A DNA stretch of 64,000 bases from Morchella semilibera. Its lineage: Eukaryota; Ascomycota; Pezizomycetes; Pezizales; Morchellaceae. A program made the position numbers and the translations under genes. Positions 3,825-7,475 of this stretch are shown here, piece after piece. A model generated the notes under the pieces. The model worked only from the letters and a program-made list of their open reading frames with translations. It was not told the origin of the DNA and did not search any database. The stretch's first letter is position 1, and each line of letters opens with the position of its first letter. Where the stretch lies: the NCBI GenBank assembly GCA_009192285.1, contig WBVU01000004.1:4424001-4488000 (forward strand), read 5' to 3'.

Positions 3825-4564
3825 ATGGATTTTCCTTTGTATGATTGGTTTTCATCGGTTTTGCTTTGTTTAGTTCATCAATGATGGGAAATGTTCATGG
3901 GTAGGGCGGGCGTTCTTGTAATGGAATTTTACGATATCGCAGAAACTGTACGAAATAAAAGGTCTACATGGAATAGGTTTTAATCAGGCCCAGAGTGGCA
4001 TCTGTTTTTGTGTTTATTTCCAGCATCTTTATTGATTCGTGGGATAGTAGGTACAGATAGTGAAGGTGTAGTGAAAATTATGAAAGTCCATTTCTCTATG
4101 CGTTCTGGGTGTATGCGCCTCTATTTGTCTTAGATAAATGTAGGTACCATATATATAGGTTTAAATTGAGGACTCCAGAAGTAGTTAAACTGTACTACGG
4201 TGTCAAGGGTAAGTGAGTACCGTATTATTCCACTGGAAGAGACCAGTAGCAACCACTCTCACCGCGTAAGCCACAGAAACTAGCGTTCATTTGAAGTGGC
4301 TTACGCCGTAATTTTACCCATATCCGCCAGAAGAGACCAGTCCCTTCTAACGGTAGAACGTAGCAGCGCAAAACGCACCGCCGCTTACCCTTCACACCGG
4401 AGTACTCTATGTGATAATGCCAAGAATTTTTGCTCAACCCAAGCAGCCCCCCACCAAAGCTTATGTAGACGACAACTTCAACTTCTCGATTGCCGAACGA
4501 TTTGTACCTTACCACTTACCATACTGTAACCGAAATCAAATCAAATCAAAGGACAAAACTGAAT
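3825..4564. other. Intergenic spacer RAE1-UBA3 with one MITE-like element
   Basis: This contains the presumed RAE1 3' UTR and UBA3 promoter. The only recognisable structure is the inverted-repeat element at 4192-4405. A tandem AAATC repeat (about 4533-4549) lies just upstream of UBA3. Confidence 0.5.
4192..4405. mobile_element. MITE-like element, 22-bp terminal inverted repeats
   Basis: The left arm GTACTACGGTGTCAAGGGTA (continuing AG, 4192-4213) is the inverse of the right arm at 4384-4405, whose reverse complement starts GTACTCCGGTGTGAAGGGTA; two mismatches in 22. Inside there is a second inverted pair, CGTAAGCCAC and GTGGCTTACG, and a direct repeat AGAAGAGACCAGT-like (GGAAGAGACCAGT near 4235, AGAAGAGACCAGT near 4329). 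There is no coding capacity. No convincing target-site duplication could be assigned, so the superfamily is open. Confidence 0.6.
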
Positions 4565-6254
4565 ATGACTGTTGTTGATCACCCAAAATGGTAAGAAAAA
4601 AAACCCCTAGTCTTGTAGCTAACCTGGGCTATTAGATAGCTAATTTATGTTTGGTGGATAGGAAATATCTCAATAGGATTCTCTCCCGAGTGGGGCCGTT
4701 TACAGAGGAAGGCTATGATCCAGATGAACAGAAGGCTTTTTTGGCGAAGAGCAAAGTTCTGTAAGATTGTCAGGGGAGCTAAGCTTCCCTTACCCTGTCA
4801 AGCTGCACTAAAGGTCATAGCTAACGAAGGTTATGGCAGGGTCATGTATGTTTCGGGATGGATCAGAATACAATGAGATACTGACTTTCCATAAAAGCGG
4901 AGCTGGCGGGTTGGGATGCGAGATTCTTAAAAATCTGGCGCTATCTGGATTCACAGACATCCATGTTATTGATATGGGTATGCTCTGCCTCGCCCAAGTT
5001 GGATTCATAGCCGTAGCTGACATGGGAATCTTTTAGATACAATTGATGTCTCCAACTTGAACCGTCAATTTCTTTTTCGGGCTGCAGATGTAGGGAAGCC
5101 TAAAGCTACCGTGGCGGCCGAGTTTGTAATGAAGCGCGTGAAAGGTGTTACCATAACTCCCTACTATGGTGCTATCCAGGACAAAGGGCCCGACTACTAC
5201 ATGAAATTTCAATTGGTTATCTGTGGGCTAGACTCTGTGGAGGCTCGGAGGTGGATTAATGCGACTTTGGTTAATATGGTAGACCCAGAGAATCAGGAGA
5301 GTCTGAAACCGTTGATAGATGGTGGTACCGAAGGTAGGTTTTTATGATCACTTTGGAACTAGAGAGATTGTAACCTGGTGGTGATAGGATTCAAGGGGCA
5401 GTCGAGAGTCATCTTACCAACATTGAGCTCGTGCTACGAATGTTCACTAGATATGCTGACCCCGAGAGCCGCAGTACCAATGTGTACACTTGCGTCTATC
5501 CCCCGTCAGCCAGCACACTGTATCGAATGGGCAAGTATCCTCGAATGGCCACGGGTTATGGGAGGTAATACTAGTCCTACGCTTGGATCTCACTATAACA
5601 AACTATTCACGAAATTCCAGATAAAAAGCTTGACAACGATGATCCAGAACACATCTCATGGCTTTATGAAAAAGCCCTTGAGCGTGCTAATGAATTCAAT
5701 ATTTCTGGTGTCACATACAGCATGACTCAGGGAGTCGTTAAGAATATCATTCCGGCCATCGCATCCACGAACGCTATCATTGCCGCATCATGCTGCAACG
5801 AAGCCTTAAAGATCATAACGAGTTGCAGCCCCTTTATGAATAACTATATGATGTATATGGGTGACGAGGGCGTCTATACTCATACTTTTGAGCATGAAAA
5901 GAAAGAGGGATGTCCTGTTTGTGGAACTTTGGCGACGGACTACGAGGCGAACGGTGAATGGACGCTGGACGAGTTTATCCAGCAGTTGAAAGAGAAGCCT
6001 GACATGTAAGACCATTAGCTCCTTCCCCACAACACTTAATGCTGATCATATCCTCGTATAGTCAAATCAAAAAGCCAACCCTCGCAACAGAACGCCGCAA
6101 ACTTTACTATGCGGGGCCGCCACAATTGATGGAAATGACGAGGCCGAATCTTGATAAGAAACTGAAGGATCTGATTGATAGTGGTGAAGAGGTCGCGATC
6201 ACAGACCCTGGACTTCCGTTTAGTTTGAGGTTGAACGTGATCTTCACTAAGTAA
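4565..6254 (+). CDS. UBA3: NEDD8-activating enzyme E1 catalytic subunit UBA3
   Basis: Eight exons: 4565-4590, 4662-4760, 4840-4845, 4898-4977, 5037-5333, 5388-5564, 5621-6005, 6062-6254. They give 420 aa, normal for UBA3. The ATP-binding motif [12 protein letters not shown] is complete only if the 6-nt exon GGTCAT (4840-4845) is included. Other signatures: the start region [24 protein letters not shown], the catalytic-cysteine region [19 protein letters not shown] (near residue 200), zinc-binding pairs CYEC and CPVC, and the C-terminal ubiquitin-like fold ending in LRLNVIFTK. The enzyme adenylates NEDD8 with an Ula1/APPBP1 partner and passes it to Ubc12, which modifies cullins. It sits 0.7 kb downstream of RAE1 with no functional link apparent. 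Confidence 0.95.
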
Positions 6255-7475
6255 GGCTTGGGTTAAATCATGTGCGGATAAGATAAAGATGATTCTGTTC
6301 GGCGGACGGCGTTTTCTTTCAACATTGAAAGGTTTTAGATAAATATTTCATGTCTTATTCCTTGCTAACCTATCGCAGAAATGTGTGACGAATCTTAAGT
6401 TAGAGACCCTTTGCGTTACAGGGCTGATTTTAGGCAAAGAAGCTAGAAACGCTCGGGGTGCAGATAAACTGCCTGAAAACAACTCATTCCAAAATGCTGA
6501 CGCTCTATACCTGAAGATCAAATTCGAGAGCATATTGAATATGTGGTAGATCGTTTCTAGTGCTAGCGGCCTAAAAGACCGCGCCGCTAGAGGGTGCAAT
6601 TGTTCTAAGATCTTAAGAAGCAAGTTTAGTAGGCTCATAAAATATGGCGCTTATCAACCAGAGCATCTCACTTAGGGGACTGCATATCTGTGTGACTTCT
6701 CACTAGTTCACTCTCCGGCAAGTGAAATAGAATAACTTGATAAATAGCATGCCAACCGAGCGAAACCCCAAAAGCTGTCAAGAGGACAAACTTCTCGAAA
6801 CATGTTATAAGGAAGTGCGCGTAGATTCTTCACTCACTTGTTATTATATCGCCAGTGGTTCAGTCCAGCTGCAGTCCACTGCAGTCGATTGTGCCAAGAC
6901 ACGCAGTCCCAAAAAATGGACGGACTGCTGGTCGACTGTGGAACTTTTTCCAGCCAAGGCTCCAGTCCGTCCAAACATTGGACGGACTGAGGACTGCGGA
7001 CTGCATGAGCAAACTAAAGTCAATTGTTTATTATGATGTTTATGATACTTGAATCAACCTCAACCCTTCAGCAGCGCAAAGAGTATATGACAAGACCTTT
7101 TCTATTCCGGTTTTATTCAACAGTAGTAATATGAATTCCAACCCAAGAGCTAGGTACCTTAACCTTATGATAGTAGCCTAAGCGACACTCTAAGAACCCT
7201 AGCCCTTATAATGCAGTGGCGCATCCAAAATTGTAGACTTTGATTTAAACGCTTTCCCTTTACTAATTAAAGTGCAACTGGGACAATACCACTCGTAATA
7301 CCATGATATCAGCCTTATCCACTGTCGCTATGGAGAATGCACATATGTGCAGTCAGGGGGTAGGATGTCTCAGGTATTAAGGGCTAGGGTTACTTCAGTT
7401 ACAACACTGGTTGTAACACGACCATACGCGTGAGCGTGTTAGTATCAAGCTCAAAACCGCGACAAAGTAGAAGAT
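6255..7475. other. Intergenic spacer UBA3-ORC3
   Basis: No coding sequence is supported. A GC-rich palindromic island occupies 6861-7003 (listed separately). A short inverted repeat GTTACAAC...GTTGTAAC lies near 7397-7415, about 60 bp before the ORC3 start. Confidence 0.5.
6861..7003. repeat. Palindrome-rich CAGTCC island, possibly a MITE
   Basis: The segment starts CAGTCCAGCTGCAGTCC and ends GGACTGCGGACTG, so its ends are roughly inverted. Inside lie a near-perfect palindrome GTCCGTCCAA-ACA-TTGGACGGAC (6966-6988) and a further copy of GGACGGACTG (about 6918-6927). It contrasts with AT-rich surroundings. No target duplication was recognised. Confidence 0.45.

Follow-up and report, generated by a model that had tools for sequence, protein, structure and literature searches.

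A putative six-base exon completing the ATP-binding motif of the NEDD8-activating enzyme gene UBA3 in Morchella semilibera

The UBA3 gene and its exon layout

The stretch of Morchella semilibera DNA analyzed here (the window, 64,000 nucleotides) carries at 4565-6254 on the plus strand a predicted gene that can be read as eight exons encoding 420 amino acids with a start and a stop codon. In this translation-based reading all seven introns are of the GT-AG type. The exons, and the two introns that enclose the third of them, are placed as follows.

4565-4590, plus strand: exon 1, start codon in frame, donor GTAAGA
4662-4760, plus strand: exon 2, ends KV-L in phase 2; translation and PDB chain alignment
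4761-4839, plus strand: intron 2, 79 nt, GTAAGA...GCTAAC (4820-4825)...CAG
4840-4845, plus strand: candidate exon 3, the 6-nt microexon GGTCAT, which would finish codon L42 and supply V43 and two bases of I44
4846-4897, plus strand: intron 3, 52 nt, GTATGT...ACTGAC (4880-4885)...AAAAG
4898-4977, plus strand: exon 4, glycine-rich ATP-binding loop, reaching ...VIDM; translation and PDB chain alignment
5037-5333, plus strand: exon 5, reaching ...IDGGTE; translation and PDB chain alignment
5388-5564, plus strand: exon 6; translation and PDB chain alignment
5621-6005, plus strand: exon 7; translation and PDB chain alignment
6062-6254, plus strand: exon 8 with the stop codon, containing most of the E2-binding domain (PF08825)

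Residues 8-419 of the predicted protein align to PDB UBA3 chains with up to 458.7 bits; the top-scoring chains are presumably human, and identity to human UBA3 is about 51%. All of the best eight PDB matches (451.9-458.7 bits) bear the name E1C or NEDD8-activating enzyme catalytic subunit, and the next family in the search, SUMO E1 subunit 2, follows at 159.9 bits. Pfam places a ThiF domain (PF00899, 193.5 bits) and an E2-binding domain (PF08825, 101.7 bits) on the protein, both above the cut-off. Moreover, the motif MCTxAS.PR, the region in which we take the catalytic cysteine of UBA3 to sit, is present and aligned opposite PMCTIASMPR of the PDB chain. The PDB matches and both domains agree with the identity given by the first-pass annotation, and the predicted gene is on this homology the catalytic subunit of the NEDD8-activating E1 (UBA3).

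Using 4700-4960 as the query, no second copy of the UBA3 region was found in the 56.8-Mb assembly. The chief targets of NEDD8 are the cullins, and cullin matches were found at eight places in the genome and ubiquitin-family matches at 27, showing that it carries parts of the pathway. From the single-copy region and the cullin matches a working UBA3 is to be expected. Two side observations concern the assembly itself. Ubiquitin-family and EF-G C-terminal matches recur with the same bit scores and at almost equal coordinates in the contig pairs C12/C13 (approximately 90,100-90,400) and C9/C10 (approximately 506,500-506,700), which suggests duplicated or haplotype contigs. Furthermore, the sole 5.8S rRNA match reported, among the 39 of 1209 candidates that were scored, lies at 1501-1672 of locus L009 (G000:C19:2699587-2699758) and is below the family cut-off, so the rDNA array may be absent from the assembly or collapsed in it. 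A globin search gave no match and carries no weight.

Searches for a fungal UBA3 orthologue confirmed none of five pattern matches with the protein query and none of 56 with an alignment query (A1) in the viral_contigs set, and none of ten with the protein query in the genome_contigs set. The alignment query confirmed one of 91 in genome_contigs, a bacterial E1-like gene, and no fungal orthologue. This bacterial gene lies on a contig of Fluviispira multicolorata (L010, 5001-6340); its protein matches UBA3 residues 13-185 and is 34% identical to UBA3 in its best segment.

The six-base slot and its splice signals

Exon 2 ends ...AAAGTTCT at 4760, and intron 2 starts with GTAAGA at 4761 and runs up to a CAG at 4839. 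GGTCAT occupies 4840-4845 and is followed by GTATGT from 4846, an AG that closes intron 3 at 4897, and CGGAGCTGGCGGG, which opens exon 4 at 4898. The gap of 137 nt between exon 2 and the exon starting GAGGLGCE, its division into introns of 79 and 52 nt, and the hexamer with CAG before and GTATGT after it were thus found exactly as first described. At 6 nt the candidate exon would lie well below the size of about 30 nt up to which an internal exon counts as a microexon. If GGTCAT is included, the junction reads ...AAAGTTCT-GGTCAT-CGGAGCTGG... and encodes KVLVIGAGG. If it is skipped, the junction reads ...AAAGTTCT-CGGAGCTGG..., V43-I44 are removed, and joining 4760 to 4898 gives KVLGAGG, in frame as well; the earlier claim that removing the whole gap leaves the motif two residues short is borne out by translation. 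Both flanking introns are in phase 2, so that inclusion and skipping alike keep the frame, and since the entire 137 nt can be removed in frame, inclusion is not forced by the reading frame.

Four introns of RPL3 from the same genome, traced by eye along the conserved L3 frames and with one exon join verified by translation, served as a reference. Their donors are GTAAGA, GTATGT, GTGCGT and GTAAGC, their lengths range from 59 to 75 nt, and all four contain a RCTRAY branch motif 10-18 nt from the end and close with TAG. The donors of UBA3 intron 2 (GTAAGA) and intron 3 (GTATGT) both occur among these four, and the distances from branch motif to acceptor, 15 nt in intron 2 and 13 nt in intron 3, lie inside the RPL3 range. 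Of the two branch-site candidates proposed earlier, ACTGAC stands at 4880-4885, while GCTAAC had been put one base too far upstream, at about 4819-4824 instead of 4820-4825. The AAAAG end of intron 3 is the only non-YAG acceptor among the seven of the gene, the other six being TAG or CAG. Introns 5 (5334-5387) and 6 (5565-5620) of UBA3 have no RCTRAY branch motif, although homology supports the exon joins at both. The RPL3 gene (L039, approximately 1748-1753, G000:C11, minus strand) shows an apparent change of frame at a short A run before QVNGG; both frames continue the same protein, making a homopolymer assembly error likely. A 124-aa piece of this L3 protein matches the PDB chains 8oo0, 7olc and 7r81 best (210-212 bits), followed by a group at about 196-204 bits, by 8esq at 177 bits and by a large group near 168 bits. 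With 7olc from Chaetomium thermophilum, 7r81 from Neurospora crassa, the second group from budding yeasts, 8esq from fission yeast and the last group from mammals, this ranking makes a filamentous ascomycete the likely source.

Splice-site weight matrices built from 264 kb (20 stretches and the window) were dropped after failing a decoy control. A strict pass yielded 21 training introns and a relaxed pass 79, compared with 55 in reversed sequence, which means that the training set was mostly noise, and the matrix percentiles were not used; in this noisy matrix introns 2 and 3 had acceptors at the 10th and 19th percentiles, compared with a range from the 4th to the 67th for the remaining five introns of UBA3. 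A repeat search over 4560-6260 returned four families of direct repeats and three of inverted ones. The 137-nt gap contains none of them, and there is thus no hint that the two introns arose from repeats.

Alternative readings of the gap

The frame neutrality of the hexamer would suit a regulated cassette, in which certain conditions would cause skipping of the microexon and so yield an in-frame UBA3 that is inactive or dominant-negative, lowering neddylation, and a glucose-dependent switch of a 20-nt microexon is described for Trichoderma Xlr2 (PMC11121469). However, neutrality of this kind would be expected by chance for about one third of microexon lengths, and we consider regulated skipping unlikely. 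A full on/off switch of neddylation, where the skipped product, a full-length UBA3 minus two residues, might remain able to bind its partners and work as a poison subunit, seems to us quite improbable.

Alternatively, 4761-4897 could be removed as a single intron, the mature protein reading KVLGAGG and the match of GGTCAT being due to chance. To compare such readings, splice models were enumerated that were intronless, had a single intron with a GT or GC donor, or had a pair of introns with GT donors. Every intron had to be at least 30 nt long and to end in AG, nested models were excluded, and each model was scored against a fragment of human UBA3. Of 436 models, 53 stay open, and the model containing the microexon stands alone at the top with 319, its product KVLVIGAGG restoring the VLVIGAGG motif as had been proposed. 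The runner-up (305), with KVMAGGAGG as its product, depends on two weak donors, GTTCTG and GTCATG. The single intron scores 304, tied third with two back-to-back models that encode the identical protein. In the match to the UBA3 chain 1tt5_B, inclusion scores 458.7 and skipping 450.4 bits, a loss of 8.3 bits, and in Pfam ThiF the scores are 193.5 and 183.6 bits, a loss of 9.9 bits.

Removing the gap whole would also cost the hydrophobic pair ahead of the glycine-rich loop, a pair that is kept in human UBA3 and in the paralogues compared. Twelve ThiF matches were found in the genome, of which eight were taken as loci, representing UBA3 and five other genes; the four left outside the comparison include the match to UBA3's own exon 4. 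Across these eight loci, at least two hydrophobic residues stand directly N-terminal of GxGxxG in all five other E1-like genes (qflv, iivv, clll, vliv and vlmv). One of the five, at approximately 1275-1296 of locus L005 and UBA2-like as we judge from its motif, has an in-frame stop just 5' of ARVLMVGAGG, and in that gene an intron therefore probably ends only a few codons ahead of the motif.

The length of the gap likewise argues against a single intron, since 137 nt far exceeds the five other introns of UBA3 (54-71 nt), being about 2.4 times their median of 56 nt. Chance expectation was estimated by dinucleotide shuffling of the gap (200,000 rounds), the outer splice sites being held fixed. 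A slot of the form AG-N6-GT that leaves at least 40 nt to each intron arose in 46,314 shuffles (23%), which leaves room for a fortuitous hexamer. A slot encoding L-[VI]-[VIL] arose in 1,263 (0.63%), one encoding exactly L-V-I, whatever its signals, in 255 (0.13%), and L-[VI]-[VIL] combined with a good donor, a YAG acceptor and a RCTRAY branch motif in five (0.0025%), by a criterion set after the site had been seen. The six-base slot by itself is ordinary; a slot with fitting residues and good splice signals is not. With its product missing the conserved pair, the single intron appears very improbable.

Finally, a stwintron, that is, a nested or complex intron removed in two steps with no microexon, can hardly be credited. 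Such introns are on record for filamentous ascomycetes, where they can contribute to exon skipping (PMC6616335), but with nested removal the entire stretch is lost, which again leaves KVLGAGG without the pair (304 versus 319). Splitting the gap back to back, at 4813/4814 or 4829/4830, requires the weak donors GTCATA or GTTATG.

A candidate splicing mechanism and known small exons

Taken from the sequence, GGTCAT at 4840-4845 is in all probability a real coding exon of UBA3, carried by most if not all mature transcripts. Constitutive inclusion would be the simplest thing to expect of a housekeeping enzyme encoded by a single copy. Going by E1 structures, V43-I44 presumably close the strand ahead of the glycine-rich ATP loop, and inclusion of the microexon would supply this pair as the end of the beta strand that runs up to the ATP-binding GxGxxG loop. 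A skipped transcript would remain in frame, but the strand would be two residues shorter and the enzyme probably inactive.

Fungal introns are short and are thought to be recognized as units across the intron, and a Schizosaccharomyces study is reportedly the source for such intron-wise recognition. The flanking introns of 79 and 52 nt would most likely each be recognized in this way (intron definition), in which case the size of the exon would not be limiting. The two would probably be removed sequentially, because the splice sites that bound six bases are too close for full simultaneous binding. A comparable proposal comes from a study of PRP-40 in C. elegans and mouse cells, where exon definition is considered sterically infeasible across microexons and intron definition, easier with a short flanking intron, is offered as the way round in a model that its authors call speculative; dependence on PRP-40 was relieved by shortening a flanking intron (PMC8378409). 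Those microexons are animal, up to 27 nt long and were studied in neurons and neuroblastoma cells, whereas the UBA3 exon is fungal and 6 nt long (PMC8378409).

Very small fungal exons are already known, including one of 6 bp and a transcript-supported one of 1 nt, so that there are examples both smaller and better supported than that of UBA3. The closest parallel is CYP621A of Fusarium, where 24 aligned genes and 18 SRA reads back an exon of 1 nt (PMC12940212). There too, a tiny exon in a filamentous ascomycete lies in a highly conserved motif and was found by protein homology, and the gap of 139 nt is more than twice the median intron of 56 nt, the same pattern as the 137-nt gap of UBA3. In contrast, skipping the single nucleotide of CYP621A breaks the frame, while the six bases of UBA3 are frame-neutral and come from a gene model in one genome (PMC12940212). 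In P450 genes of the white rot fungus Phanerochaete chrysosporium, which have frequent small introns, the shortest microexon is likewise six bases long, though here the gene is that of an E1 enzyme (PMC1184071). The 20-nt microexon of Trichoderma virens Xlr2 also encodes part of a functional domain in a filamentous fungus; its conditional inclusion was shown by RNA-seq, whereas the UBA3 microexon is read from genomic DNA (PMC11121469). Codon-sized microexons are also known from nank of Tuber melanosporum (Iotti et al. 2012, as cited in PMC3689799 and PMC4986451), where many alternatively spliced exons serve diversification, as opposed to the single motif-completing exon proposed for UBA3.

A literature search of partial coverage found no earlier report of a six-base exon in UBA3. 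One candidate precedent, PMC5866513, was set aside as unrelated, since UBA3 appears there among the Tra2 events tested by RT-PCR. With respect to transcript evidence, Iso-Seq is described in Ganoderma as weaker than RNA-seq at very short exons (PMC11590231).

The UBA3 microexon, if real, is further evidence that essential genes of fungi can conceal exons of very small size. Annotation software unable to place a six-base exon would probably deliver a UBA3 that is missing two residues next to its ATP site, or a broken model. The exon offers a clean benchmark for microexon-aware annotation. It would also test how a spliceosome working by intron definition copes with an exon too small for both of its splice sites to be bound together.
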